Source: Methylicorpusculum sp. | GTDB taxonomy: Bacteria > Pseudomonadota > Gammaproteobacteria > Methylococcales > Methylomonadaceae | Reading direction: 5' to 3' | NCBI RefSeq assembly: GCF_030651835.1 | Contig: NZ_JAUSBX010000094.1 | Location: forward strand, 1-64,000 | DNA length: 64,000 bases | Shown here: piece by piece, positions 15,661 to 64,000 of the stretch | How positions within the stretch are numbered: position 1 is the first letter of the stretch | Layout of the letters: each line of letters opens with the position of its first letter | Notes under the pieces: generated by a model | Told to the model about the DNA's origin: nothing | The model's input: the letters and a program-made list of their open reading frames with translations, nothing else | The model's database searches: none | Translations under genes and position numbers: made by a program

Positions 15661-16042
15661 AAAAATTCCCTCAAACAAGTGAAAAAATAAACTCAGGATT
15701 TGAATAATAAAAGCTTACTCGTTTATGGACTCCCGAACCCAGCGTCATCGCCATTAAGTGTAGGATCAAGCTGCTGCGGTAGTGGGGATTTATCCCTACT
15801 TTGCGAATCAATTCGCATCAGCAACAGTCACTCATGTTATGCGGACGTTATAGTTGAATTCGGCTCCATGAGAACACCTCCAGACTCACCCGTATAAAAT
15901 AAATCCACTCAACTTTTATAATTCAGCTACTTAGCTGTTATTTACATCACTTAAGAGTTTAAATCAAGACTCCAAGGCAAGTCTTCAACCGATTTTGAGA
16001 GCTGTCTAGGCTGAAATATCAGCAGTACTGCCTGTTGAAAAC
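15661..16042. other. Intergenic region with paired hairpins upstream of GGDEF-EAL gene
   Basis: This 382-bp gap between apeB and the GGDEF-EAL gene holds no gene. It contains two adjacent stems, AGTGGGGA/TCCCTACT at 15781-15800 and TGCGAA/TTCGCA at 15802-15817, possibly enclosed by GCTG/CAGC. They could be part of the 5' leader of the GGDEF-EAL gene. No recognised riboswitch consensus fits. Confidence 0.35.
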
Positions 16043-43295: not shown

Positions 43296-46283
43296 ATGAT
43301 GTCAACTATCAGGCTCGGATTCAAAACTCCTGAAGAAGAAATTAATTTGCTTTATGGGATAATTAATTGCCTTAAGGATGCCGTTGTTGTGCTTGATCCG
43401 GAGCTCAATGTCAACTTCCTAAATAAGGCGGCTACATTACTTTATGGGCTTGAGCTTAGCCAGAAACCACCAGAGCACAAAGGCCAGCTTAGCGGTATAT
43501 TTTCAACTGATCGCATCACACCGTATTCATTAAAAGAGCTGCCGTTCTTATTAGCAGACCAAAGTGATGCAGCTGCTGAACTGGAGCTGTACGTGCAACG
43601 CCCCGATGGCACAGGCACCCCAGTTTGCACTGATTGTCGAACTTTGCTGGATAAAGACGGGGACATGCAAGGTTGGTTGGTAACATTTACCGATATAACC
43701 TTGCAAAAACAACGAGAACACGAGCTATGCCAACGCACCGAACATCTTGAAGACGCGGCGATGATTGCGAATATTGGCAGTTGGTCGTGGGATGTGCTTA
43801 ATGACAGGGTCTACTGGTCGGACGAACTCTACCGAATCTTTGGCCTGGATACACAATCGCCTGCACCTAGTTATTCGAAGCACCCGCATTTATATACGCC
43901 TGAAAGTTTTGCCCGCTTGAACGATGCCGTTCAAACAGCGCTTAACGCCGGATTGCCTTATGAGCTTGACCTGAATGCTCTACATGCAGATGGCACAATT
44001 AGAACGTTGATAGCGCGTGGCCAAGTTAAACGCGATCAAGCCGGACAAATTGTCGTGCTCAACGGCGTAGCCATCGATATTTCTAATCGCAAGCGCGTTG
44101 ACGAACAACTGAAACTGATCATTGACATGATCCCGATGCCGGTTTTTGTGAAAGATGCCGACAGCCGTTTTCTCCTTGCCAACAAAGCAAGCGAAGAGCA
44201 ATGGGGATATTCAGCTAACGACTTACGAGGAACAGACGGGAGTCAATTCTTTCCGGCTGAGCAAATGCAAGTGTTTTTGGCTAAGGATCGCGAAGTATGG
44301 GAAAGCCGGTCTTTGATAAGCAATGAAGAATTCGTGTGGAGCGATAAATTTAAAGAAAACAGACTTTGCATTACTTTGAAAAAACCGATCTTCGATAGCT
44401 TTGGTAATCCACTTTATCTGATTGGAACCATAGAGGACATTACCGAACGTCGGCATGCTGAAAATTCTCTTAGGGTAACATTGGCAAGATTAAGGGCTGT
44501 GTATGATAACTTGCCTTTTTTGGCCTGGATGAAAGATCTGGAAGGCCGGTATCTTTTAGCTAATAAGCATTGGTCCCAAGCTGTCGGGATCGATGACCGG
44601 ATCAATTTAAACGGCATTACCGATTACGATATTTGGCCAAAAGAATTAGCCGATCATTACCGGTCGCTCGACCAACAAGTCATAACAAGCCGCCAACAGA
44701 TAGTATTGACTGAGAAAGCTTTGGATGACGACCGGGAAACCTGGATAGAAACCATCAAAGCCCCCATACTTGATGATAATGAACAAGTATTAGGTACTAC
44801 TAGCCTTGCCCGCGACGTTACTGAGATCCTAAGCACTGAACAACAACTAAAGAAATACAGTGAACGCTTACGCCTGGCTTCCAAAGCAGCGGCTATTGGC
44901 ATCTGTGAGTGGGATATCAGCACGGGGCTGGCAGAATGGGATGAGCGCAACTACGAAATTTTTGGCATCCCCTATGGCACACCGATCGATTATCGGACAT
45001 GGGCAAAATTGGTCCTTCCTGAGGATTTATCCAACACCACCATTAAACTGCGCAAATTACTTAAAATGAAGCAGGAAATATACTGGGAGTTTCGTATCCA
45101 TCGCCAGAGCGATGGTGCGTTGCGCTACATTCAGGGATCTGCGATTCCTGCGTGCAAATCAAACGGTGAAGTCCATAAAATTGTTGGCGCTAACCTGGAT
45201 ATCACCGCTTTCAAACAAGTCGAAGCTGAACTTGAAGAGAAGAGATCTCACCTTTCGGAGGCTCAGGCTTTAGCAAATCTAGGTAGCTGGTCGCTTGATA
45301 TGGTCAACAATGAACTGACATGGTCCGACGAAAATTACCGAATTTTCGAAATTGCCAGGGGAACAACGCTAAGCTATGAGAGCTTTTTAGCCCTAGTGCA
45401 CCCGGATGACCGAGTGTATGTGAATGCCAAATGGGCTGCCGCTTTACAAGGAGAATCCTATGACATCCTTCATCGTATTGTGGTAGATAGTAAGGTTAAA
45501 TGGATTCGGGAGCGTGCGGAATTGGAGTTTTCTTCTGATGGTCGTCCTTTACGCGCAGTCGGCACGTCTCAGGACATCACTAAACTCAAGTTAATTGAAA
45601 GCGAACTTGAAGCCTCCCGTTTGCAATTACGACAACTTGCTGCTCGCCGCGAAAGAACCAGGGAAGAAGAGCGCAAGCGCATCGCTCTCGACATTCACGA
45701 TAATTTGGGCCAAATGTTGAGCTCGCTACGCATGGAAATTGCTCTATTACGTATCAATTTCGCCGGGGACAATCTACCACTTTTAGAAAGCATCCGAAGC
45801 CTTACCCAGCTGGTGGATAACACTATTGAGATAACACGTGAGGTAGCGACAAAATTAAGGCCCACGGTGCTCGAAATGGGTATTGGGCCAGCGCTGGAAT
45901 GGCTTGTGAAAACTACCGCATTGCGATCCGGTATTGAATTCAACATTTCCTATACCGAGAGCGAACTGGATTTGAATGAGGAAAAAGCAGTCGTCTTATT
46001 TAGGATCGTCCAGGAGTCCATCAACAATGTGTTAAAACATGCCCAAGCAAGCAAAGTGAATATTTCCATGAAAATGGAGTCCGACAATTATGTATTAGAA
46101 ATCGCTGATAACGGCAAAGGCTTTGACTACGCAGAATCCAGGGAAGTCAACTCTCTGGGGCTGATTGGCGTAAAGGAACGCGCCATTATGCTAGGAGGAG
46201 AAGCTTGCATCTCAAGTTCACAGGGCAATGGCACGCTTATCCGGGTGCGGATCCCGGTGAGTAATGCGGAGCATCGGCAATGA
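43296..46283 (+). CDS. Multi-PAS sensor histidine kinase, NarL/DegS type
   Basis: A 995-residue cytoplasmic kinase without obvious transmembrane helices. It contains about six PAS/PAC repeats (for example LKDAVVVLDPELNVNFLN, DDAAMIANIGSW-like and LANLGSWSLDMVNNELTWSD segments), then a HisKA_3 domain with His801 in RIALDIHDNLGQML and an HATPase domain with VQESINNVLKHAQAS and LGLIGVKERAIMLGG. The adjacent LuxR-type regulator overlaps by 4 bp, so the two are a cognate pair. The signal is unknown. Confidence 0.92.
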   Translation: MMSTIRLGFKTPEEEINLLYGIINCLKDAVVVLDPELNVNFLNKAATLLYGLELSQKPPEHKGQLSGIFSTDRITPYSLKELPFLLADQSDAAAELELYVQRPDGTGTPVCTDCRTLLDKDGDMQGWLVTFTDITLQKQREHELCQRTEHLEDAAMIANIGSWSWDVLNDRVYWSDELYRIFGLDTQSPAPSYSKHPHLYTPESFARLNDAVQTALNAGLPYELDLNALHADGTIRTLIARGQVKRDQAGQIVVLNGVAIDISNRKRVDEQLKLIIDMIPMPVFVKDADSRFLLANKASEEQWGYSANDLRGTDGSQFFPAEQMQVFLAKDREVWESRSLISNEEFVWSDKFKENRLCITLKKPIFDSFGNPLYLIGTIEDITERRHAENSLRVTLARLRAVYDNLPFLAWMKDLEGRYLLANKHWSQAVGIDDRINLNGITDYDIWPKELADHYRSLDQQVITSRQQIVLTEKALDDDRETWIETIKAPILDDNEQVLGTTSLARDVTEILSTEQQLKKYSERLRLASKAAAIGICEWDISTGLAEWDERNYEIFGIPYGTPIDYRTWAKLVLPEDLSNTTIKLRKLLKMKQEIYWEFRIHRQSDGALRYIQGSAIPACKSNGEVHKIVGANLDITAFKQVEAELEEKRSHLSEAQALANLGSWSLDMVNNELTWSDENYRIFEIARGTTLSYESFLALVHPDDRVYVNAKWAAALQGESYDILHRIVVDSKVKWIRERAELEFSSDGRPLRAVGTSQDITKLKLIESELEASRLQLRQLAARRERTREEERKRIALDIHDNLGQMLSSLRMEIALLRINFAGDNLPLLESIRSLTQLVDNTIEITREVATKLRPTVLEMGIGPALEWLVKTTALRSGIEFNISYTESELDLNEEKAVVLFRIVQESINNVLKHAQASKVNISMKMESDNYVLEIADNGKGFDYAESREVNSLGLIGVKERAIMLGGEACISSSQGNGTLIRVRIPVSNAEHRQ

Positions 46284-46918
46284 TCCGACTCATTATTGCC
46301 GATGATCATCCTATTATTCGTACCGGGCTTAAGCATTTATTTCAATTATCAGTGGATATTGATATCGTTGCTGAAACAGACAACAGTCAGCAGCTGTTGG
46401 ATCTTCTGAAGGATAAGGTTGATGAAGTCGATCTGCTATTGCTTGATTTGAATATGCCAGGCTTCAGCGGGATAGAATCTATCACCTACGTGCGCAAACA
46501 CTATCCTGATTTACCGATTCTTATTTTGAGCATGCATAATGAGTTACAAATTGTCACACGTGCTTTAAAAGCCGGCGCATCGGGCTATCTTACTAAAGAT
46601 AGTGAGCCTGAAATCTTACTAAGTGCTATCCGCAAAGTAGCGGCTGGTGGACGTTTTATCGACCCTAAACTTGCCGAAAAATTGGTCTTCGAATTTGAAG
46701 GTTCACACGAAAAAAAACCACACGAAAAGCTATCCGAACGAGAGTTTGAAGTCATGCAATTGTTGGCTAACGGCAAGAGTGTCAACGAAATTGCAAACGC
46801 GCTTTTTATTAGCAACAAAACCGTCAGCACTCACAAAACCCACCTGTTGAAAAAGTTGCATCTCAACAATATCACCGAACTGATCCGCTATTTCGATGCG
46901 CAAGACTGGCATAAATAA
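46280..46918 (+). CDS. LuxR/NarL-family response regulator
   Basis: A 212-residue regulator. The receiver has DDH near the N-terminus, phosphoacceptor Asp56 in LLLLDLNMPGFSG and GYLTKDSEPEIL; the C-terminal HTH (about 147-205) shows LSEREFEVMQLLANGKSVNE and ISNKTVSTHKTHLLKKL. It overlaps the end of the multi-PAS kinase gene by 4 bp. Its targets are not evident. Confidence 0.95.
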   Translation: MIRLIIADDHPIIRTGLKHLFQLSVDIDIVAETDNSQQLLDLLKDKVDEVDLLLLDLNMPGFSGIESITYVRKHYPDLPILILSMHNELQIVTRALKAGASGYLTKDSEPEILLSAIRKVAAGGRFIDPKLAEKLVFEFEGSHEKKPHEKLSEREFEVMQLLANGKSVNEIANALFISNKTVSTHKTHLLKKLHLNNITELIRYFDAQDWHK

Positions 46919-47071
46919 TCGTGATGTAAACATTGGTTGTTCTCAGTCTTAGGGATTTTCCTATATTTTCATCAGGAATTTCTGTTTAAAAATCCGAATC
47001 GCACGATGTTCAATCACGCCCTCTTTGCCTAACATTGAAACGATGGCTTAATCGATTAAGTGGAGGCGAAA

Positions 47072-47464
47072 ATGCGCGTATCAGTGGCAGATACTGAGAT
47101 TGAAGTCACTATTAAAAATTTAGATTTTAGTAGCACACAAAACCTTTTGCTGTGCTGTAAAAGCCATGCAAATTTGCATCCGGCGGCAAGTGCTAAGCTT
47201 CGTCTTGAAAATGTAACCAACATCAATAGTTGCGGTATTGCCGCGATATCACTGATTGCCGATTGGATGCCTGGCGGTTTTGAGATAACTCTCAGTCAAT
47301 GCAGCCGAGAAGTTCACCAATGGATTGACTATTGCCAAGGTAAAGACTTTTTAAGTACGCCTCCGAATTTATCCTGTTCTTTAATCTGTACTAGCTGTTT
47401 TGACAATAACGACTATCTGAGTTTTGGGGATAGCGTTCACTCTTCTGCACAATCGGAGTGCTAA
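47072..47464 (+). CDS. STAS-like anti-sigma factor antagonist domain protein
   Basis: A 130-residue protein. ATG 47072 is preferred over GTG 47060 because a GGAGG lies 5 nt upstream. The region ASAKLRLENVTNINSCGIAA at about 50-69 fits a STAS/anti-anti-sigma fold with Ser at the usual phosphorylation position. The C-terminal part is Cys-rich (CSLICTSC). It ends 2 bp before an ETR1-like GGDEF-EAL gene. Partner switching is suggested but the kinase partner is unknown; the REC-PP2C protein at 51.9 kb is a candidate phosphatase. Confidence 0.6.
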   Translation: MRVSVADTEIEVTIKNLDFSSTQNLLLCCKSHANLHPAASAKLRLENVTNINSCGIAAISLIADWMPGGFEITLSQCSREVHQWIDYCQGKDFLSTPPNLSCSLICTSCFDNNDYLSFGDSVHSSAQSEC

Positions 47465-47466
47465 GG

Positions 47467-49974
47467 ATGGCCTTATCAGATCTATTCAATTTGGGTGAAA
47501 TGGTCCCGCACGGTTTCTGTATTAAGTGGACACCGGGTCTGCTTTGGTCCTATGTAGCTGCCGATACATTAATTGCACTATCCTATTTCTCCATTCCATT
47601 CTCACTTTACTACTTTGTCTCGCGCCGTAAAGACCTGCAATTCCGCCGGATTTTCCTGATGTTCAGCGCATTCATCTTGGCCTGTGGCACCACCCACTTA
47701 TTTTCGATCCTGTTGTTGTGGCAACCGTTTTACTGGGTGGATGCCATTTTAAAAGCCATCACGGCAGTTATCTCTTTTGTCACCGCGATTTATCTGGCGA
47801 GAATCATTCCGCAAGCTTTGTCTTTACCGTCTCCGGCAGCGCTCGAAAGGGAAATTGAACAACGAAAACAATACCAACTTGAACTGCAAGGCAGCGAGAG
47901 CAATCTGCGCATTCTTACCGATCAGCTCACGACGCTAATAGAGTCCATCCCGGACACCATTTTTTTTAAGGATGGCGAGGGTCGCTTGCTAATTGCGAAT
48001 GAATGCGCTAGACAGCTTTTCAAGCTTCATGAGGTTGCCTGGCAAGGTAAGACAAAATTGCAACTGGTCGCTGAACAACCAGACTTACATGAGTTATACG
48101 AGAAGTGCTTTAACGATGACGAGTCCACATGGAATATCCACGATCGGCTAGTTTGCGAAGAGAATGTTATTATCGGTGATGGTAATGTTCATAAATTCGA
48201 GGTCCGTAAAACTGCAGTTTTCAATGATGACAGCGAACGCAAGGGTCTGGTCGTCATCGTGCGCGATATCACTGATCGTTGGCTGGCCGAGCGAGAATTA
48301 CGTATTGCCGCCACCACCATCGAATCGCAAGAGGGCATCATGGTGACGGATGAAAAAAATCGTATCCTGCGGATCAATCGTGCCTTTACCCGATTAACCG
48401 GCTACATCCCGGCAGAAGTCATCGGCAAAACTCCCGCCATACTGAAGTCAGGTCGTCATGACAAAGCTTTTTATCAGGCGATGTGGGAGAAATTAATCTC
48501 GGAGAAGCACTGGCAGGGCGAAGTGTGGGATCGGCGCAAAAGCGGTGAAATTTATCCCAAGTGGCTAACTATCAATGCCGTGACCGACCCAACCGGGCAA
48601 GTCACCAATTACGTCGGCGCATTTTCCGATCTGAGCGAACACAAGGATGCTGAGGCGGCCATCCATCGACTTGCCTTTTATGATCCTCTCACCGATCTTC
48701 CCAACCGAAGATTGCTAAACGATCGTCTGGAACTGGCAATGATGGTGAGTGACCGCAACCAAGCCCATTGTGCAATGCTGCTGATCGATCTGGATAACTT
48801 CAAGATCATCAATGACACCAAGGGCCACGGTATCGGCGATCTGCTGTTGATAGAAGTGGGGAAACGCTTGAAATCCTGTGTGCGCCAAGGCGACACAGTC
48901 GCCCGACTAGGCGGCGACGAATTCGTCATCATGCTGGAGAATCTGGATGCTGAGCTAGAGACCGCAGTTGTCCAAGCCGAACGCGTGGGTGAAAAAATCA
49001 TCCAATCGTTCACTCAGTCTCACCTATTGGATGGGAAGGAACACCATAGTTCTGCCAGTATCGGCATTAGTTTATTTTTCGGCAGCCAATTAACTAGTGA
49101 AGAAATCATGAAGCACGCCGATACGGCGATGTATGAGGCTAAACAAGCGGGACGCAATGCGCTACGATTTTTCGATCCAGATATGCATGCAACACTGGAA
49201 GCACGGGTGACCTTGGAGTCAGATTTACGCCATGCCCTGGAGCTCGATCAACTTCGGCTTTACTATCAGCTGCAGATCGACAATACTGGACGCGTGCTCG
49301 GTGCAGAAGTATTGTTGCGCTGGCAGCATCCGCAACACGGCATGATTTCCCCTGCCCAATTTATTCCGATCGCCGAGGAATCCGGGCTGATTGTGCCGAT
49401 TGGCGAGTGGGTATTACACTCTGCCTGCATGCAATTGAAAGCATGGGAAAACGACCCGCTCACCAAGGATTTACACCTTGCCGTCAATGTCAGTGTCCGT
49501 CAGTTTAGACACCCTAACTTTGTCGAGCAGATGTGGAATATTCTAAAACATACCGGTGCGGACGGACTCAAGCTTAAGTTGGAACTTACAGAAAGTCTCG
49601 TGATGCAAAACGTGAGGGACACCATTGATAAGATGGAGGAGATGCAACTGTTTGGTATCCATTTCTCGATGGACGATTTCGGTACCGGCTATTCCTCCCT
49701 CAGTTACCTGAAGAGATTACCGCTATCCCAGTTAAAAATCGATCAATCCTTCGTCAGAGACCTCATCTACGACACATGTGATGCAGCCATTATCCAAACC
49801 ATCATCGGCATGGCCCACAATCTCGGACTAAATGTGATTGCTGAAGGCGTGGAGACCGAAGAGCAGCGCGCCTGTCTGGAATGTTTGGGCTGCTTTTCCT
49901 ATCAGGGTTATTTATTCAGTAAACCGGTGCCTCGAGTGGAGTTTGAAGCGTTATTGAAAGCCCGATCTACTTAG
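47467..49974 (+). CDS. GGDEF-EAL protein with ethylene-receptor-like membrane domain
   Basis: An 835-residue protein (ATG 47467, preceded by CGGAG). The N-terminal about 110 residues form three transmembrane helices and resemble the ethylene-binding domain of plant ETR1: TLIALSYFSIPFSLYYFV, FSAFILACGTTHLFS with Cys73 and His77 in the place of the ETR1 copper ligands, and ITAVISFVTAIYLARIIP. Then come two PAS domains (about 145-280 and 285-400), GGDEF with RLGGDEFVIML, and EAL with EVLLRWQHP and DDFGTGYSSLSYL. Both c-di-GMP motifs are intact. Confidence 0.88.
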   Translation: MALSDLFNLGEMVPHGFCIKWTPGLLWSYVAADTLIALSYFSIPFSLYYFVSRRKDLQFRRIFLMFSAFILACGTTHLFSILLLWQPFYWVDAILKAITAVISFVTAIYLARIIPQALSLPSPAALEREIEQRKQYQLELQGSESNLRILTDQLTTLIESIPDTIFFKDGEGRLLIANECARQLFKLHEVAWQGKTKLQLVAEQPDLHELYEKCFNDDESTWNIHDRLVCEENVIIGDGNVHKFEVRKTAVFNDDSERKGLVVIVRDITDRWLAERELRIAATTIESQEGIMVTDEKNRILRINRAFTRLTGYIPAEVIGKTPAILKSGRHDKAFYQAMWEKLISEKHWQGEVWDRRKSGEIYPKWLTINAVTDPTGQVTNYVGAFSDLSEHKDAEAAIHRLAFYDPLTDLPNRRLLNDRLELAMMVSDRNQAHCAMLLIDLDNFKIINDTKGHGIGDLLLIEVGKRLKSCVRQGDTVARLGGDEFVIMLENLDAELETAVVQAERVGEKIIQSFTQSHLLDGKEHHSSASIGISLFFGSQLTSEEIMKHADTAMYEAKQAGRNALRFFDPDMHATLEARVTLESDLRHALELDQLRLYYQLQIDNTGRVLGAEVLLRWQHPQHGMISPAQFIPIAEESGLIVPIGEWVLHSACMQLKAWENDPLTKDLHLAVNVSVRQFRHPNFVEQMWNILKHTGADGLKLKLELTESLVMQNVRDTIDKMEEMQLFGIHFSMDDFGTGYSSLSYLKRLPLSQLKIDQSFVRDLIYDTCDAAIIQTIIGMAHNLGLNVIAEGVETEEQRACLECLGCFSYQGYLFSKPVPRVEFEALLKARST

Positions 49975-50482: not shown

Positions 50483-51706
50483 ATGATCAAGAAAAACATC
50501 CTGTTTGTCGACGACAATGAAAATATACTCAGCGGCATTCAACGCCAACTGCACCCATACCGTGAGCAATGGCAATTATTTTTTGCCCACAATGGCTCCC
50601 AAGCTCTGGAATTGATGGCTAAACAACCAATAGACCTGATCGTCAGCGACATGCAGCTGCCCTATGTCCGGGGCGACCAGCTTCTAAAACAAGTCAGCGA
50701 GCTGTATCCAGCCACAGTCCGCATAATTTTGAGCGGTTATGCCGATGATGAAAACTTGAAAGCAGGGCTTGAGGTCGCACACCAGTACGTCAGCAAACCT
50801 TGCAGTGCCGAAATGCTGAGGGAAGTGATCGCCCAAGTATTTAAAATCCAGGCCTGCGTTACCAATCCAAAAATCATTTCCGGTATCGGCGATATTAACC
50901 AGTTGCCCAGCTTGCCAAAAATTTATAACGAACTTAACGCCATCATCACCAAAGAAAATACAACCAGCCGGGATATTGCGGAGATTTTTGCCAGAGACAT
51001 GGTGTTATCCGCCAAATTACTGCAATTGGTTAACTCGCCGTATTTTGGTTTATATCGCAAAATTTCAAGCCTCACAGAAGCAATCAACCTGATTGGCGTC
51101 AAAAAATTGAATAGCCTGATGCTGTCTGCCCATGTCAAAAGTGCGTTTCCGGTCATCAACCCGCAAACGCAGCGGTACATGGAATATATTTGGCAGGATG
51201 CCGCCAGAGTGTCGGACCTTTCAAAACTGATCGCCCTGTCTGAACAACAAATGGAGGACCGCCCTGACCAGGCTTACCTGGGCGGTCTTTTACATAACCT
51301 GGGGCTACTGCTATTTCTATCTCGCGACGGCGACAAACTCAACGCCTTGATAGAACAGACAAAAAATACCCACATACCGGTCAGCGAGCTGGAAACGAGC
51401 ATATTCGGTTTTAACCGCTGCGAGGCAGCCGCTTATGTACTGAGTTTATGGAAGATTCCTCCGCGTATCATAGAAGCCATTTTGCTGCAAAAAACACCCA
51501 ATGATAGCGATTACGACGGTTTCAATGCTCTGACTGCGGTTCATACCGCTAGCTGCTTGCTCAAACCTTCGGTCATGGAAGGCTGTGACCGCCTGTTCGA
51601 AATCGATCTGGACTTCAGCTATTTAGAACGCATCAACAAACTGGAACGACTAACTCATTGGCAATCACTGGCTGAAAAAGTGCTGGCTCACTATGCGGAT
51701 AAGTAA
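50483..51706 (+). CDS. Response regulator with HDOD domain
   Basis: A 407-residue protein: receiver with Asp56 in DLIVSDMQLPYVRG and Lys in VSKPCSAEML, then an HDOD domain (about 150-345) with LPSLPKIYNELNAIITKEN, LLQLVNSPYFGLYRKISSL, EAINLIGVKKLNSLML and a later LGGLLHNLGLLLF. HDOD output domains are regulators often tied to c-di-GMP or stress signalling; no nuclease activity is implied. It starts 4 bp after the histidine kinase relic. Confidence 0.9.
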   Translation: MIKKNILFVDDNENILSGIQRQLHPYREQWQLFFAHNGSQALELMAKQPIDLIVSDMQLPYVRGDQLLKQVSELYPATVRIILSGYADDENLKAGLEVAHQYVSKPCSAEMLREVIAQVFKIQACVTNPKIISGIGDINQLPSLPKIYNELNAIITKENTTSRDIAEIFARDMVLSAKLLQLVNSPYFGLYRKISSLTEAINLIGVKKLNSLMLSAHVKSAFPVINPQTQRYMEYIWQDAARVSDLSKLIALSEQQMEDRPDQAYLGGLLHNLGLLLFLSRDGDKLNALIEQTKNTHIPVSELETSIFGFNRCEAAAYVLSLWKIPPRIIEAILLQKTPNDSDYDGFNALTAVHTASCLLKPSVMEGCDRLFEIDLDFSYLERINKLERLTHWQSLAEKVLAHYADK

Positions 51707-51865
51707 TGCCGGCAATCATTGGAATGTATTGAAGACGCTTATCACAAAGCGATTGGACTCCTTTCAAAATCGGCTTGTGCAACAAAAGCAGGGGGTTAAG
51801 AGAGTTATCTGCAGGCTTTAGGACAAACCTTTCAAACCATCGAATCTACGACGGAGTATCTCGTA

Positions 51866-53092
51866 ATGATGACTAAACAAACTGACAAAATTCTCTTTAT
51901 AGATGATGAAGAGAATATGCTGCATATGTTTCATCGCGCGCTTGGCCGTCAGTTTAGTATTACTACGGCTAACGGCAGTGAGCAGGCTTTGAGCTTACTG
52001 CAAGAAAACGGCCCTTTCGCAGTGATTGTCGCTGATTACAATATGCCTGATATCAACGGGGTTGAATTACTCAACCGGGCCTTCACGCTTTCACCGAATA
52101 CCGTGCAAATCATGCTGACCGGTAATATCCAGCTGGATGTAGCGATCAACGCCATCAACGAAACCAATGTCTTCCGTTACCTTCCCAAGCCCTGCCCTAT
52201 GGATGTCCTGCGCAAAGTGATTGATGATGCGCTGGATCAATTCCACTTAATCCGGGATAAACAAAGGCTGACCAGCGAAATAGAGCAAAAAAACCTGCAA
52301 TTGGCCGCCATGAACGATGAATTAACCCGGCAAAAATATATGCTGGAATATGAATTGGAAATGGCTAAATCCGTCTATGGCAACATCGTGCTCTTCGAAG
52401 AAAATGAGCCCGATGGACTGGATTATTATTCTGCGCCCAAGGAAACAGTGGGCGGAGATTTTTTGCTGAGTCACATCAGCAAAGGTCATGAATTTTTTTA
52501 TCTGATGGTAGGCGACATCACCGGGCATGGTCTTCAATCCGCATTAGTGGTCTCATTGATTAGCAATGTATTTGACGACCTGAACAACAACCTCATCAGT
52601 ATTGAGGAACTGGCTCAGAATATTAACGGCAAAATGTGCAACAAGCTGCCAACCGGCCTGTTTTGCTCTGCAGTTCTGGCAAAGCTAGACAAAAACACCG
52701 ACAGTATCACCCTTTGGCAAGGCGGAATGCCCAACGCCTTCCTGCTTGATGCGGCAGGAAATATTGTGGAAACGCTAACTTCAAATAATCTGCCTCTAGG
52801 TGTGCTGGCTGAGCAGGATTTCAGCCGAAGTACCCGGTGCTACCCATTAAGCCATGCCAATTCACTGTTCGTTTACAGTGATGGTGTCACCGAACAAATG
52901 AATCAAGACCAGGTCATGTTCGGTGAAGATCGCTTACAGACTGCTTTGCGTAGCGGACCATCAGGACCAAAACGGGTAGACGCTGTCATCTCAGCCTTGC
53001 AAGCCTATCAGCAAGGCGAGCCTCAAGCTGATGACATTTCCATGATGGAAATGAACTTTGCCCGAGTTGCTCAAGCCCTGGCTCAAATATGA
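51866..53092 (+). CDS. Response regulator with SpoIIE-type PP2C phosphatase domain
   Basis: A 408-residue protein: receiver with Asp57 in VIVADYNMPDINGVE and Lys in LPKPCPMDVL, a coiled coil (about 130-165), then a PPM/PP2C domain with SAPKETVGGDFLLS, MVGDITGHGLQSAL, SDGVTEQMNQDQ and QADDISMM. Unlike the HsbR-like protein of the che operon it lacks an ATPase domain. It should dephosphorylate a STAS protein; the STAS-like protein at 47.1 kb is a candidate. A 34-bp region at its end overlaps the frame of the next gene. Confidence 0.9.
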   Translation: MMTKQTDKILFIDDEENMLHMFHRALGRQFSITTANGSEQALSLLQENGPFAVIVADYNMPDINGVELLNRAFTLSPNTVQIMLTGNIQLDVAINAINETNVFRYLPKPCPMDVLRKVIDDALDQFHLIRDKQRLTSEIEQKNLQLAAMNDELTRQKYMLEYELEMAKSVYGNIVLFEENEPDGLDYYSAPKETVGGDFLLSHISKGHEFFYLMVGDITGHGLQSALVVSLISNVFDDLNNNLISIEELAQNINGKMCNKLPTGLFCSAVLAKLDKNTDSITLWQGGMPNAFLLDAAGNIVETLTSNNLPLGVLAEQDFSRSTRCYPLSHANSLFVYSDGVTEQMNQDQVMFGEDRLQTALRSGPSGPKRVDAVISALQAYQQGEPQADDISMMEMNFARVAQALAQI

Positions 53093-57505: not shown

Positions 57506-58546
57506 ATGAAAATGACTAAGCATTCCAAGTGTATACAGCGAAGCCTTGTATTCAGTTGTTTGATATTTCTATCGTTTTTCCATCATGCTCAGGCAAATTT
57601 CTTAGATTTAGGCCAAGCAGGCGGCTTTAATGCTTTCATATTAGGTGACATGACTGGATATGGCTCGGATGTTGAGGGCCGCCTCGCTGTCGGAGGAAAT
57701 CTTAAATTAAATCATTTCTCAGTCGCGATGGAACTGAGTTCTGCCTGGGATCAGCAAGACACTTTGGTTGTTGGCGGTAATCTTGAGTACACCAATGGCA
57801 GAGTCTACCATGGCAATGCTAGAATCGGCGGGACGGTATCTATCAATGAAACGGTCGGTTTTTATAGCGGAGAGAACCCTGCACAAACTAATGGCAGCCT
57901 CATTAACAACAATGACGTGGATTTTGATGCACTAAGCCAGCAGATTATTAATAAATCGCAAAATTGGGCTAATTTTGCTGCTAATGGTAACGTTAACTTG
58001 GAATACAGCCAATTGACATTAACAGGTGAAAATAGCGGATTGAATATTTTTTCAATAACTTCTGACCATTTAGCATCCACACAAAAGTTTACACTGAATA
58101 TACCTACAGATGCCTGGGCATTGATTAATGTAAGCGGTACTTCAGTCACCATGAACAACTTCGGATTTTTCCGTACTATCAACGGAGAAACCAATCAATT
58201 ACAAGACAACGCGCCACCTGTAAGACACGATGGAAGTCTCACCCAAAAAGTTTTATTTAACCTGACGGATGCAACATCTTTATTGTTACATTCCATAGGT
58301 ATCAAAGGCAGTTTACTTGCCCCTCTCGCCGATACAGTTTTCTATAATGGCCATATAGACGGCAATTTGTTAGTCGGCTCGTTACAAGGCAAAGAAGGTG
58401 AATATACAGGTCAAGTTAATCTATATCCTTTAACACCTGGTAGTCAAAACACTTCACCTGTTCCAATTCCAGGGATGTTGCCTATCTTAACTTTTGCTAT
58501 AAGCAGTTTGCTACTGTTAAGAAGACGTAAAAATATGATTGGTTAA
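57506..58546 (+). CDS. Choice-of-anchor A family secreted protein
   Basis: A 346-residue protein with an N-terminal signal peptide (SLVFSCLIFLSFFHHAQA). The domain starting FLDLGQAGGFNAFILGDMTG with GSDVEGRLAVGGNL and TLVVGGNLEYTNG matches the choice-of-anchor A family. The C-terminus has SPVPIPGMLPIL, a hydrophobic helix and RRRK, a degenerate PEP-CTERM-like sorting signal. It is probably an exported surface or extracellular matrix protein. It is divergent from soxB, convergent with bcsC. Confidence 0.85.
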   Translation: MKMTKHSKCIQRSLVFSCLIFLSFFHHAQANFLDLGQAGGFNAFILGDMTGYGSDVEGRLAVGGNLKLNHFSVAMELSSAWDQQDTLVVGGNLEYTNGRVYHGNARIGGTVSINETVGFYSGENPAQTNGSLINNNDVDFDALSQQIINKSQNWANFAANGNVNLEYSQLTLTGENSGLNIFSITSDHLASTQKFTLNIPTDAWALINVSGTSVTMNNFGFFRTINGETNQLQDNAPPVRHDGSLTQKVLFNLTDATSLLLHSIGIKGSLLAPLADTVFYNGHIDGNLLVGSLQGKEGEYTGQVNLYPLTPGSQNTSPVPIPGMLPILTFAISSLLLLRRRKNMIG

Positions 58547-58639: not shown

Positions 58640-61108
58640 CTAATACATCTGCATATTACTGAACATACCCTCCGGTATGTCCGTACTATAAGATGCCTTT
58701 CTTTCTTCGAAGAAGTAACGAATAAATAATCCACCGGTGTAATCTTCGAAGTTGTTGGCGTGGCGAATCGCGGCTCCTGCACCAAATTGAATATTAGGCG
58801 TTGCTAACCAAACACCTTTTAATTCAAAATCCAAGGCTTGGCCCACATCCTTTTGTTTATCATAACGGCCTCTACCTGGATCAACTAGAGGGAACCAAGG
58901 CGTACTGGATTCATTAACGATTTGCGCTCCAGCCACAGCACGACCTTTTATAACAAATGACTTACCCTCATCAGTTAAAAAATTAACGCCGAAACCGGCA
59001 TTGATATAATGATCCGGACTGAAATAACCACCATGTCCTAACGTAAATTGGCTTAAGTTTTTCTCGTAATGCTCATACATTATCGACGGACCTATAGAAA
59101 AATAGTCAAATCCCCTAATTTTAATATTCCTGCCCAACCCTAACGAAGCAGCTAATGAAGTATTGTCAGCTACTTTGCTTCCGGTCAACATAACAATTTC
59201 GGCCGAACCGTTAAAATTCCATCTTTCGTTAAACTGATGATAACCTGATGCTTTAACACCTGAACGTAAAACTCGACCCCATTCCAAATCACTGTTACTT
59301 GCAGGAAGCGGAGAATTTAATTGATTCGCATAGGGATCACGAATACCTGTGTAGGAAAGAATGGATTGCCTGACCGGTTGCGAATAAACATTTAAACCCC
59401 AATGACCGGACTGGGTTTGCTGAATAAAACCAACATCAAACGTGATAGCTGGATCGACGACCCCACTGATCGGCGTACTACCCAGTCTGATAGAGGGACT
59501 AAACCACCCATCCTTACGGTATAAAAAATCGATTTCTAAGGCTTCGCTAAGCTTTTCAGTTGGCGAGAAGGGGCTTTTACATCCATTTAGAGTTGGATCG
59601 AGACTACCTATTGCCGACCTGCAGAAACCGGGGCTTCCTGAATGCAGCCCTATCCGACTGAGTGACAACTTGAAATTATGGACTCCGCCCACGGTGTAAG
59701 AACCGGTTACCACTGGCAACCTTAATAAATCGAGACGACCCAATCCATCTTCACCTGATTTATGACGACCATAAGCACCTGCATCTATATAAGCCGAGTC
59801 AATATTGGCCAAATCAGGAAAAAGATCGGGTGCCAATTGATAAGCCGATAGAAACTGCTTTCGGTAATAGAGTTCTTGAGCATGAAAATTTTTATATTCA
59901 TCAAACAGTAAACCGCCTTCTTGTCTGGCTTTTTTCTCCAACAAATCTCGACTGACCTGGGCCTGATTTTGAACATAAGCACTTGCATAGTTCTTGGATG
60001 GGTTTTGTTGATAGAGCCCATCAAACAGTTGAGCCGCTTTTTTATAGTCTCCCGAATTATTTGCAATCCACGCGTTTAACTCTTGTGTCTCGGCATCACT
60101 TCCGGTTGCGGCCTCTGCATGTTGAACGTATCCCGATGCGGCAATCGGATTATTAGCGTCAATTTCTTGCCAAGCTTTTGCCTTGTATATCCGTGCTACT
60201 ATTTTTTGTATTTCGATGTCAGCGTTATCGGATGCCTCGGTGATGGCTAGCGCTTTGTTTAACTCGCCTTGTTTCTCAAAACTAAGCGCTTGGCCGAGTC
60301 TTGCATTCTCATTAGAGGGGTTCCATTTTGCAGCTTTTTCAAACCATAGCTGGGCATTAGGGTAATCTTTTAAATCAAAAAAACGCCATCCTATAAGGCT
60401 GGCAATATTATCATCGTTAAAATGTTCAACCCAATGTGTTAATTGCTCAAAACTCTGCTGCTGAACATTTAAATCTGATTTCTGCTGGTTCAAATAATCG
60501 TCCTTCAGCCACTCATATTCCAACCTGTCAACATAATCACCTAACAGATAACTGCGTCCAATTTCGGCCAATTGCATAAAATCTTCATAATCCAAAACTG
60601 TGCGAGCCTTATCCAGAGTCGTCATCCTAAATGCAGTGTTTTGGCATTCTTGCAAGATAGTTTCATAGATGGATAGGCCAGCATGAGCATTATCTTGCTG
60701 GACCAGATTTTCAGCGCGATCCCACTTTGCCCCTAAATCACTACATGGTCCTACAGACTTTACTTTCTTGGGGCGCGCTTTAAGGGGTTTGGTAACTCGG
60801 TTATGTGAAAAACTTACCGAACCACTAACCCTGCTGCTACTTTGCATAGCATTTTGTAAATCAACAGGAACTTGCCAATTAGGAAAACGTTGTTTGAGCT
60901 GATTGATTTGCTGTTCAAGCGCTTTAAATTTTTTGGCTTCGTATAAGGCCCATAGGATGCTTTCGTCGGGTTGTTCCGCATGACTTGGTCGAAACAAAGG
61001 TAAGGCGTCAGGCTGACTTCCTGGTTTTTGTTCGATGCTTAAAGGCGCTGTATAACCCAGCGCAGGAAACAGCAGCACTAAAAAATAAAAAAAGCCGGAT
61101 TTGTTCAT
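58640..61108 (-). CDS. bcsC: Cellulose synthase outer-membrane subunit BcsC-like
   Basis: An 822-residue protein with a signal peptide (FYFLVLLFPALGYTAP), TPR-rich periplasmic region (about 120-400) with repeats such as NPSNENARLGQALSFEKQG and AAQLFDGLYQQNPSKN, and a C-terminal outer membrane beta-barrel (about 470-822) of the BcsC type ending GGLFIRYFFEERKA. It is shorter than the roughly 1150-residue E. coli BcsC, with fewer TPRs. It exports cellulose across the outer membrane. Its ATG overlaps the bcsZ stop by 1 bp. Confidence 0.85.
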   Translation of the reverse strand: MNKSGFFYFLVLLFPALGYTAPLSIEQKPGSQPDALPLFRPSHAEQPDESILWALYEAKKFKALEQQINQLKQRFPNWQVPVDLQNAMQSSSRVSGSVSFSHNRVTKPLKARPKKVKSVGPCSDLGAKWDRAENLVQQDNAHAGLSIYETILQECQNTAFRMTTLDKARTVLDYEDFMQLAEIGRSYLLGDYVDRLEYEWLKDDYLNQQKSDLNVQQQSFEQLTHWVEHFNDDNIASLIGWRFFDLKDYPNAQLWFEKAAKWNPSNENARLGQALSFEKQGELNKALAITEASDNADIEIQKIVARIYKAKAWQEIDANNPIAASGYVQHAEAATGSDAETQELNAWIANNSGDYKKAAQLFDGLYQQNPSKNYASAYVQNQAQVSRDLLEKKARQEGGLLFDEYKNFHAQELYYRKQFLSAYQLAPDLFPDLANIDSAYIDAGAYGRHKSGEDGLGRLDLLRLPVVTGSYTVGGVHNFKLSLSRIGLHSGSPGFCRSAIGSLDPTLNGCKSPFSPTEKLSEALEIDFLYRKDGWFSPSIRLGSTPISGVVDPAITFDVGFIQQTQSGHWGLNVYSQPVRQSILSYTGIRDPYANQLNSPLPASNSDLEWGRVLRSGVKASGYHQFNERWNFNGSAEIVMLTGSKVADNTSLAASLGLGRNIKIRGFDYFSIGPSIMYEHYEKNLSQFTLGHGGYFSPDHYINAGFGVNFLTDEGKSFVIKGRAVAGAQIVNESSTPWFPLVDPGRGRYDKQKDVGQALDFELKGVWLATPNIQFGAGAAIRHANNFEDYTGGLFIRYFFEERKASYSTDIPEGMFSNMQMY

Positions 61109-62139
61109 TAGAGCGTTTTTTTGGTTTGCTGATAAGTCAGCTTACTGAACAGCAAAAGCGTTGACGAATAGTAATCTTGATCGTCATCAAGAGTTACCTT
61201 GTCAAAATTATTTTTTCGACCCGATGACCATAAGGCCATCTCTTTGACTGAAGAAATTCCGTCGCTTGCACCAAATGAATCCATAATATTTTCATTTAGC
61301 GCAATCCATGCCGGAGTAAAAGACTGATAAAACGACCAATAGTCAGCAAAAACATCCAGTGCTTCGTTATCGATTTTTGCCATCATCAAATAAAGCGGCA
61401 CTCTTATCGCGTCATAACCAAAACGCTGATTTTTACTGGGAAACATCGTCTTGTCGCTATTGAGTTGCAACCAGTCCGGAGGAAGTTGCCAGCGACCGAA
61501 CCGGGCTCTTTTCAACAATTTTTGGCCGCTTGCTGTCAAACTTACCCATACTGGATCATTATCAAACGATTGAAAAGTGAGCAAAGCGGGGAAAACCCAA
61601 TAGGAAAGATTTATTACCGTGGCATCCGATGTTTTAAAGCCATATTCTCCAGGCAGAAAGATAGGTAATCCATCCCAGGAATCAACCAGCTTTTGCTTGA
61701 TATCCTGCATGATGTCTTTAGCTTCCTTTTCATAGTCAGGTAAAGACCATAACCTTGAGGCTTCCAATAAAGCCCATGCAATCAAAATATCTCCATCAGT
61801 TGCATTGTTAGGGTCTTCATCCGACAAAGGTAATTCAGCACGTCTTCGCCACATGAAAAGTTTATCTTTTCTGACTTGTAAATTCATTTGGGTCCATTGC
61901 CAAATCTGATTAAATGAATCTTTATCATTGTTTTTGACCGCTAAAATCATCCCATAGCCTTGCCCCTCCGAATGCGAGACATTCTGATTGCCAGTATCGA
62001 TAATTCTGCCGTCACTCGCTAAAAACTTGGATTTATACTGCTGCCAATCATCTTTGATGGACATATCCGGTTGCAGTTGACAAGCCGTAAGCAGAAAAAG
62101 AAAAGAGAGTAAGGCGCCTCTTAATATTACTGAAATCAT
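61108..62139 (-). CDS. bcsZ: Cellulose-synthesis endoglucanase BcsZ (GH8)
   Basis: A 343-residue family 8 glycoside hydrolase. The motif NQNVSHSEGQGYGM holds the catalytic Glu58, and ATDGDILIAWALLEAS holds a conserved Asp. BcsZ cuts disordered cellulose chains in the periplasm to aid export. The N-terminus LLSFLFLLTACQLQPD has a clear lipobox (LTAC, Cys20), suggesting lipidation, whereas E. coli BcsZ has a normal cleaved signal. It overlaps bcsB by 4 bp. Confidence 0.93.
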   Translation of the reverse strand: MISVILRGALLSFLFLLTACQLQPDMSIKDDWQQYKSKFLASDGRIIDTGNQNVSHSEGQGYGMILAVKNNDKDSFNQIWQWTQMNLQVRKDKLFMWRRRAELPLSDEDPNNATDGDILIAWALLEASRLWSLPDYEKEAKDIMQDIKQKLVDSWDGLPIFLPGEYGFKTSDATVINLSYWVFPALLTFQSFDNDPVWVSLTASGQKLLKRARFGRWQLPPDWLQLNSDKTMFPSKNQRFGYDAIRVPLYLMMAKIDNEALDVFADYWSFYQSFTPAWIALNENIMDSFGASDGISSVKEMALWSSGRKNNFDKVTLDDDQDYYSSTLLLFSKLTYQQTKKTL

Positions 62140-64000
62140 GAGTGAGTAGCTTTTTTATATCGGCTTAAGAACTTATGTATCAACCAAGCTGTAAATAGCA
62201 ATATACTAAAAATTAATCCCAGCCATTGCCAAGGATACTTGGAGAAATGCATGATCCATGTCATTTTTAGACTGTCGTCTCCAGACATAATTGATTCACC
62301 TTGCCGCTCCCAATGGAACTTGCCGTTTTTATCCCAAACAAAGATGTTACCCTGCACTTGCGACCATAATCCGGTTGAAAAAAGCTCTGTAAGACCAGAA
62401 TACAACTCAGTGCTGCCTTCGCTAAGTAATGCCAACACTACACCGTCGCGTTTTTGAGATAAATAGGACATCATTAGAAAACTATTACCCAAACCGGCAG
62501 TCTGCGAAATGACGACATTTTCGCGCTCAGTTGCTACTGGTTTATTTATCATATTATTATCAAATAATACGCGTTCGAACCTTTCAATCAGTGACTCGTT
62601 CTGAGCTAATTGTCTCTCTTTAAAACGATAGGGAAATAAGTTAGTCTTGCCCAGCTTAACGGGAGCTCCGTCTAATATAGGCGGTATGTTTTTAGCCGAA
62701 ATCTTGCCAATTAAGGCAATATTTTTCTTATCGTAATTGTCACTCTGCGTAATATTTAAGTCAAAAACAGGCGTGCCCTGATAACTGACCAATTGAGCAA
62801 TCAAATACCAAGCCGAGGCAATGGAATCTGAAGAAGTATCCAACATTTTGAATACTGTATTATCGCCTGAGGCATTGTTTAGCAACGGGAAACCGGTTCT
62901 CTCAAGCAATTTAAGATCCGGTAAATTTGCTACTCGGCCCGTTTCTGGAAATGATAGGGTGGAATCTTCATAAACGTTGGCCAGTAAGTTTTCTCGCTGG
63001 ACAAATGCGCACTCTCCGTATTCTGATGGAGTCAATACTGATTTAAAAGTCAGGGTATTGAGCCCAGGTTTAAAATTTCTTAATGGAACAGAAATTTGAT
63101 AATTTCGATAATGGGCCCCGCTTTCCTCTTTAAGCTGAATAGCGTGCACAAAACCATTATTAAGACTAATGTTGATCACCGAATCTTTGCGCATTGCCGC
63201 GCCATAAGCCAAGTTAAGATTCAATTTAACCAAGGTCTCTTCAGTGCTATAAAGATCGGCCGGCAACCTAAATTCCAACCTTGCTTCTGAGCTTTGAATA
63301 TCCATAAATTGGTTATAAAAATCCAAACTGGAAAAAGTATACGTATTTCCCGGAATAATTGATTTATCTGGCAAAAGAGGTTCGGCGACTGGAAAGTTCA
63401 ACGCGTTTATAACTGTTTGCTGAGCATCAGGAAAAGAAGCATTCAACAATGCGAACGATTGGACAGCCGATTTAACCTCATCGTCTGTTTGCCCGGAAAT
63501 CACCAGAATAAATTGATGTGTATTGGGATGTTGTTGAAACAAACCCAGGTAAGGACCTTCAATTGCTTGAGCTACGTGATCGGGCAGTAGTTGTTTAATC
63601 TGATCTTTGTTACCGACGATTACTGCATCGTTATTAAGTTGATCCATGTCGATTTTAAATTGCCCTATACCCGTGTTCCCCTCAACACTAACAGTTGACT
63701 CCATATAGCTTTCTTCGAGCTTCAGCGGCACGTATTTCAAACGTAATTTCACACCTTGCGCAATTATTGATCCCCAATATAGATAATCGTCTGAAACCGC
63801 CTTATCACCTCTAATGATGGTCAGAGAATAATGTTCTAGTCTGTCATTTATTAAGCTATTTAATTTAGATAATTTTTCTGTAATAGGTAGATTCTGGTAA
63901 TTTAGTGTTAATGAAGATTTTACTGCATCAAATTGAGTCCATAATTCAGGTGCACTCCAGTCTTCACATTCCGAATCAGTATAATGCTGAGCAGCTTTGA
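62136..64000 (-). CDS. bcsB: Cellulose synthase periplasmic subunit BcsB (partial, 5' end outside window)
   Basis: The frame stays open to the right edge, so the N-terminus lies outside the window; an internal GTG at 63752 is not the start. About 621 residues are visible, including ALLNASFPDAQQTVINA, QFILVISGQTDDEVKSAV, SSLDFYNQFMDIQSSEARLE, FVHAIQLKEESGAHYRNYQI, NLTFKSVLTPSEYGECAF-like segments and a C-terminal transmembrane helix near LGLIFSILLFTAWLIHKFL. BcsB guides the glucan chain through the periplasm with BcsA. bcsA should lie to the right. Confidence 0.88.
   Translation of the reverse strand, partial: KAAQHYTDSECEDWSAPELWTQFDAVKSSLTLNYQNLPITEKLSKLNSLINDRLEHYSLTIIRGDKAVSDDYLYWGSIIAQGVKLRLKYVPLKLEESYMESTVSVEGNTGIGQFKIDMDQLNNDAVIVGNKDQIKQLLPDHVAQAIEGPYLGLFQQHPNTHQFILVISGQTDDEVKSAVQSFALLNASFPDAQQTVINALNFPVAEPLLPDKSIIPGNTYTFSSLDFYNQFMDIQSSEARLEFRLPADLYSTEETLVKLNLNLAYGAAMRKDSVINISLNNGFVHAIQLKEESGAHYRNYQISVPLRNFKPGLNTLTFKSVLTPSEYGECAFVQRENLLANVYEDSTLSFPETGRVANLPDLKLLERTGFPLLNNASGDNTVFKMLDTSSDSIASAWYLIAQLVSYQGTPVFDLNITQSDNYDKKNIALIGKISAKNIPPILDGAPVKLGKTNLFPYRFKERQLAQNESLIERFERVLFDNNMINKPVATERENVVISQTAGLGNSFLMMSYLSQKRDGVVLALLSEGSTELYSGLTELFSTGLWSQVQGNIFVWDKNGKFHWERQGESIMSGDDSLKMTWIMHFSKYPWQWLGLIFSILLFTAWLIHKFLSRYKKATHS

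Follow-up and report, generated by a model that had tools for sequence, protein, structure and literature searches.

An ETR1-type ethylene-binding domain joined to a GGDEF-EAL module in the genome of a probable gammaproteobacterial methanotroph

Introduction

Plants sense the ripening gas ethylene with a copper-and-ethylene-binding module. The 64,000-nucleotide stretch of DNA analysed here (the window) encodes an 835-aa protein that resembles this module at its N-terminus and c-di-GMP enzymes at its C-terminus, raising the question of whether an ethylene-receptor-type domain has come to act on c-di-GMP and, if so, which signal it might report.

Results and Discussion

Domain architecture of the 835-aa protein

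The frame at 47467-49974 on the plus strand is free of stops and encodes 835 aa, with a GTG 9 bases upstream as an alternative start. Its layout is as follows.

47467..49974, plus strand: EBD-PAS-PAS-GGDEF-EAL protein, 835 aa (open frame and Pfam domains)
47539..47826, plus strand: ETR1_N ethylene-binding-type membrane domain, residues 25-120 (PF25487 match, modelled helices)
47833..47910, plus strand: predicted helix, residues 123-148, joining the membrane domain to PAS domain 1 (AlphaFold2 model)
47941..48279, plus strand: PAS domain 1 (PAS_4), residues 159-271 (Pfam)
48325..48630, plus strand: PAS domain 2, residues 287-388 (Pfam)
48673..49158, plus strand: GGDEF domain, residues 403-564, with GGDEF motif and RxxD site intact (Pfam, alignment)
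49222..49926, plus strand: EAL domain, residues 586-820 (Pfam, alignment, fold comparison)

ETR1_N, both PAS domains, GGDEF and EAL each score above the Pfam cut-off; for ETR1_N (PF25487) the score is 126.7 bits against a curated cut-off of 27, with E-values of 3.4e-38 in the genome search and 4.4e-37 in the protein scan. A sequence-only reading of this DNA had likened residues 30-115 to the ethylene-binding domain of plant ETR1 and had placed two PAS domains with intact GGDEF and EAL domains behind it, in place of a histidine kinase. The Pfam match at residues 25-120 and the domains and motifs that follow bear out both points; no kinase domain is detected in the protein by Pfam, and the output is GGDEF-EAL. 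The presence of an ethylene-receptor-type domain on a c-di-GMP enzyme is confirmed as an observation.

Binding-site residues and model of the membrane domain

Three positions of the membrane domain are central to the comparison with ETR1.

47563..47565, plus strand: Asp33, equivalent of ETR1 Asp25 (alignments)
47683..47697, plus strand: CGTTH motif, Cys73 to His77, equivalents of ETR1 Cys65 and His69 (alignments)
47752..47754, plus strand: Lys96, equivalent of a conserved lysine, presumably ETR1 Lys91 (alignments)

The alignment uses what we take to be the letters of ETR1 and the list of its seven required residues. Judged by these, the 835-aa protein retains 7/7 (Asp25, Tyr32, Ile35, Pro36, Ile62, Cys65 and His69 of ETR1), together with the Lys91 equivalent. 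The seven lie at Asp33, Tyr40, Ile43, Pro44, Ile70, Cys73 and His77, the positions implied by the earlier alignment, whose pairing of Cys73 and His77 with Cys65 and His69 we reproduce. The number of seven, and the places of Asp25, Cys65 and His69 among them, agree with PMC11819568, and an aspartate-lysine salt bridge is described, without residue numbers, in PMC13012798. Cys73, His77 and Asp33 are invariant in our alignments of 44 chosen domains and 10 full-length proteins; the 44 rows were picked from the window and 80 named loci (81 in all) and share 48-73% identity with the window's domain.

Built on these 44 rows, the AlphaFold2 model of residues 1-149 has a mean pLDDT of 86.6 and contains long helices at residues 23-53, 60-85 and 89-119 (block pLDDT 85-94), followed by a helix at 123-148. 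The membrane domain is predicted to have three transmembrane helices, the number put forward in the sequence-only reading. The model of the whole protein is of low quality (pLDDT 69.9, pTM 0.38). No solved structure matched the membrane domain by sequence, and in the fold comparison none of 140 matches stood at E 0.001 or better.

c-di-GMP output domains

The GGDEF motif lies at residue 482 and the RxxD site at residue 473, five residues ahead of the motif. In the EAL domain, EVLLR at residue 614 replaces EALLR, and the stretches NVS, ELTES, DDFGTGYSS, LKID, IAEGVE and QGYLFSKP are found; the roles assigned to the GGDEF and EAL motif stretches are those that we presume them to have. The closest solved sequence for the output region is MorA (E 3.3e-114), and the top fold matches are BifA, PA0575 and MucR, with Z 33.3 and an rmsd of 2.0 over 253 residues for the EAL fold match to BifA. 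Among the NCBIfam matches listed, the best is phosphodiesterase DibA (NF045675) over residues 269-825, at 636 bits below the 980-bit equivalog cut-off, which leaves the protein outside that family. As a low-confidence guess, it may act as a net phosphodiesterase. Since its genome holds 42 GGDEF matches, the enzyme is one of many c-di-GMP proteins of the host. A second GGDEF-EAL protein (804 aa) is encoded in the window at 13264-15678 on the minus strand; the matches listed for it at E 1e-10 do not include ETR1_N.

Comparison with known receptors and enzymes

Plant ETR1, in the letters assumed above, has the same Pfam domain and binding residues as the 835-aa protein; unlike the latter, it signals through GAF, kinase and receiver domains, and its N-terminus has two cysteines where the 835-aa protein has one aligned. 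By its GGDEF-EAL module the protein resembles enzymes of the MorA, BifA, DibA and DosP type. DosP is an oxygen sensor that works through haem, and we know of no ETR1_N domain in any of the four.

A plasmid of Azospirillum brasilense Sp7 (H6, L185) has a 525-aa frame that overlaps a receiver-domain-like frame behind it, the arrangement published for AzoEtr1. This part of the record is unannotated, and the frame was matched to AzoEtr1 because strain, length and context agree. Over 148 aa the domains of AzoEtr1 and of the window's protein are 46% identical and share FILACGTTH, and the two proteins have the same membrane domain, the same seven residues and PAS behind the domain; unlike the window's protein, AzoEtr1 has a histidine kinase and response regulator as its output, not GGDEF-EAL (PMC11819568). 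Residues 1-130 of AzoEtr1 expressed in yeast gave saturable ethylene binding, disruption of AzoEtr1 left cells with little or no ethylene binding, and ETR1_N-type receptors affect how A. brasilense and Synechocystis form biofilms (PMC11819568). SynEtr1/UirS/Slr1212 of Synechocystis is likewise a bacterial ethylene receptor with an extra cytosolic sensor domain and affects motility and biofilm; unlike the 835-aa protein, it combines a cyanobacteriochrome with a histidine kinase and takes light as a second input (PMC6682694, PMC5812497).

The histidine kinase output of characterised ethylene receptors is absent from the 835-aa protein, which departs by its c-di-GMP output from the known bacterial ethylene receptors, histidine kinases in the portions of the literature examined. 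In general terms both this domain family and the variety of its outputs were known already, bacterial ethylene-binding domains carrying a wide range of putative outputs (PMC7700396). The literature searched, accessible in part and limited in reach, yielded no description of an ethylene-binding-domain/GGDEF-EAL fusion, no test of direct coupling between an ethylene receptor and c-di-GMP, and nothing on topic for ethylene receptors in methanotrophs; the word 'ethylene' has 0 occurrences in the main text of a 2022 census of c-di-GMP inputs (PMC8846402).

Orthologues and gene neighbourhood

Nine loci among the matches listed align with the 835-aa protein over 819-832 aa at 60-71% identity. Three of them (L100, L101 and L102, titled Methylobacter or Methylococcaceae) reach 70-71%, and six (L104, L107, L108, L112, L113 and L120) about 60%; L037, L041 and L046 are more distant, at 38-42% over 810-826 aa. 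Carriers of orthologues include Methylobacter and Methylomonas, L112 being from Methylomonas sp. LW13. The Pro36 position is Ala in L104 and in four Methylomonas copies (L108, L112, L113 and L120), leaving Pro in 5/10 full-length proteins (the window's and its nine orthologues); because five of the nine orthologues have Ala there, the ethylene site is not strictly conserved among them. In two further genomes of the same genus, ETR1_N was found only in kinase-like proteins (by motif), and the ETR1_N-GGDEF-EAL gene therefore seems accessory.

Three genes precede the receptor gene on the same strand.

43296..46283, plus strand: multi-PAS histidine kinase, syntenic neighbour (Pfam, locus comparison)
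46280..46918, plus strand: LuxR-type response regulator, syntenic neighbour (Pfam, locus comparison)
47060..47464, plus strand: small STAS-like protein, 2 bases upstream of the receptor gene (sub-threshold STAS match)

The order of histidine kinase, LuxR-type regulator, STAS-like protein and receptor recurs in L108, L112, L113 and L120; the STAS match is below threshold in the window's protein (E 0.15), and the Methylomonas homologue gives E 0.016. L107 has a STAS-like neighbour that is 28% identical, no neighbour matching the window's was found at L100 and L102, and L101 and L104, with fewer than 800 bases upstream in their records, fall outside the synteny comparison. Downstream of the receptor gene, the plus strand codes at 50483-53092 for response regulators that carry HDOD and SpoIIE phosphatase domains.

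Cellulose synthesis genes (BcsC-type, GH8, BcsB) occupy 58640-63752 on the minus strand, 8.7-13.8 kb downstream of the receptor gene; a BcsA-like glycosyltransferase lies just beyond the window (L186:1379-3646, minus strand) and an adhesin-like protein (PF20597) at 57506-58546. In Komagataeibacter, cellulose increases in response to ethylene (PMC4686702). A search for BcsB was positive in only 1/9 orthologue-holding genomes (2/11 searched in all), several of them draft or metagenome-assembled, and a linkage between receptor and cellulose is not claimed.

Distribution of ETR1_N and of its outputs

ETR1_N is widespread in bacteria, not rare: it was detected in 19/41 relatives (18 above the cut-off), in 29/398 genomes of a phylum draw (28 above the cut-off), in 16/61 genomes around G227 and at no fewer than 579 loci in named genomes, the carriers among the matches listed including cyanobacteria (Nostoc), Methylotenera, Burkholderia and others. 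Plasmid records gave 19 matches, A. brasilense among them, and phage records none. In a 278,859-base IMG/VR record, ETR1_N is fused to an HWE histidine kinase (L097:4950-6065, plus strand, 371 aa); a terminase search of the three ETR1_N-bearing IMG/VR records returned one sub-threshold match, and none clear in the L097 record.

The window's own genome has three ETR1_N loci. In the protein on contig C39 (L033:125-1237, minus strand) Gly replaces Asp25, and its frame of 371 aa compares with 925-938 aa in the same-genus copies L047 and L048; it may be truncated and may bind ethylene poorly. The protein on contig C112 (L032:6599-8086, plus strand) has an EBD-PAS-HisKA-HATPase layout in which Val replaces Ile62 and Arg the conserved lysine, and is a possible kinase counterpart of the window's receptor.

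Residues were surveyed in 116 proteins, comprising 33 from the own genome and relatives, the best 80 of at least 579 named loci, and 3 IMG/VR records; 33 of the 34 ETR1_N matches of relatives (the window genome's three included) were used, the sub-cut-off G022 match being omitted, and the fragments L062 and L063 were counted as they stand. All seven residues are kept in 89/116 proteins, and by position the counts are 115 for Tyr32, 114 each for Cys and His, 108 for Asp and 105 for Pro36. GGDEF output, detected by a profile built from these proteins or by phmmer, is present in 27/116: 15/33 proteins of the own genome and relatives (14 with EAL) and 12/80 named loci, the best of at least 579 (9 with EAL). 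The seven residues are all kept in 17/27 GGDEF-type proteins versus 72/89 others, which speaks against a role in ethylene sensing that is fixed across the GGDEF class but leaves the window's copy unaffected. In a 116-row tree (L062 and L063 omitted, AzoEtr1 and the presumed ETR1 sequence added), the GGDEF label changes 13 times, at least six of these being forced by well-supported branches, with few columns and 51/112 inner branches open; c-di-GMP outputs have therefore been gained or lost several times by the ETR1_N domain.

Host, pMMO and ethylene

Two PF02461 genes (pMMO/AMO A-subunit type) are present in the window's genome, PF02461 matches occur in 35/41 relatives, and Methylobacter and Methylomonas are among the nearest named orthologue carriers listed; the host is therefore taken to be a gammaproteobacterial methanotroph, in keeping with the methanotroph-like host first suspected.

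ETR1_N is commoner in the relatives (18/40, the window's genome left out) than in the phylum draw (28/397; Fisher p 2e-9), as it also is in a genus of another class, where 29/37 genomes have PF02461 and 13/37 have ETR1_N (p 5e-6); counts in both sets are at E 0.001 and each includes one sub-cut-off match (G022, G435), G227 of the latter genus also sits in the phylum draw, and the tests ignore kinship, genomes of one clade not being independent. Within the sets, no significant tie between PF02461 and ETR1_N was found, either among the 41 relatives (17/35 with and 2/6 without PF02461, p 0.67) or in the 37-genome genus (12/29 with and 1/8 without, p 0.22). PF02461 is above the cut-off in 3/398 phylum-draw genomes, the window's own, G142 and G227, and in the latter two ETR1_N was not found despite PF02461. 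A tie of ETR1_N to copper need or pMMO was rejected on these counts and is only a lead. Of the sequence-only reading, the domain, the copper-ligand pair, the GGDEF-EAL output and the host type hold; its explanation of the domain by the host's copper need does not, as the domain also occurs in cyanobacteria, Methylotenera and Burkholderia and does not track PF02461.

pMMO co-oxidises ethylene to epoxyethane, to which the inhibition of methanotrophs is ascribed; ethylene can stand at 1-15 ppm in soil gas and inhibits soil methane oxidation (PMC11507031). Poisoning through pMMO is therefore a plausible reason for a methanotroph to sense ethylene, not evidence that the 835-aa protein does so.

Proposed function and alternatives

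A gas-sensor function for the 835-aa protein appears well grounded by homology to AzoEtr1, and we consider it rather probable that the protein is a Cu(I)-dependent ethylene receptor with c-di-GMP output. The three-helix membrane domain would form a dimer in which Cys73 and His77 hold Cu(I), and ethylene would bind at this site. Binding would shift the helix bundle and be relayed through the linking helix to the two PAS domains, altering the balance between diguanylate cyclase and phosphodiesterase. A methanotroph meeting ethylene, which pMMO turns into toxic epoxyethane, might thus change its attachment or motility.

GGDEF proteins often have MASE domains as their membrane input, and the membrane stretch could in principle be an unrelated MASE-type sensor with a chance likeness to ETR1. 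This is hardly conceivable given that the nine Pfam matches of the protein (E 0.001) contain no MASE domain and assign the membrane stretch to ETR1_N only, that no MASE model stands among the 25/41 NCBIfam matches listed, that 0/14 control genomes match ETR1_N, and that the stretch is 46% identical to the AzoEtr1 domain; the profile check on which the sequence-only reading had staked its claim came out in its favour. A membrane domain that serves mainly as an anchor, with input through the two PAS domains, is quite improbable: a PAS-GGDEF-EAL protein can be a sensory enzyme in its own right, as the sub-cut-off DibA match illustrates, but an anchor would not need Asp33, Cys73 and His77 inside its helices, invariant as they are across domains only 48-73% identical.

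It is also unlikely, if worth more weight than the anchor, that the domain binds copper but reports copper supply, redox state or another Cu(I) ligand (CO, acetylene). Few residues of the survey are as constant as the Cys and His ligands, while Pro36 varies even in close orthologues; the weaker retention of the seven residues in GGDEF-type proteins and the pMMO/AMO-type genes of the host point the same way. However, the domain is common in Nostoc and Methylotenera, groups for which we know of no pMMO, and the window's copy retains all seven residues. The experimentally tested bacterial domain compared here, that of AzoEtr1, binds ethylene (PMC11819568).

Beyond the ethylene-receptor reading, we offer more tentatively, as an idea that may well prove wrong, that methanotrophs took up ETR1_N as an alarm for a gas made poisonous by their own methane monooxygenase, with one class signalling to c-di-GMP directly, without a phosphorelay, and a hydrocarbon gas as a primary c-di-GMP input. 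Should receptors of this class bind ethylene, the biofilm-motility switch would respond directly to a gas hormone that is also common in soil, and, because ethylene inhibits soil methane oxidation (PMC11507031), an ethylene receptor in methanotrophs would bear on the methane sink.
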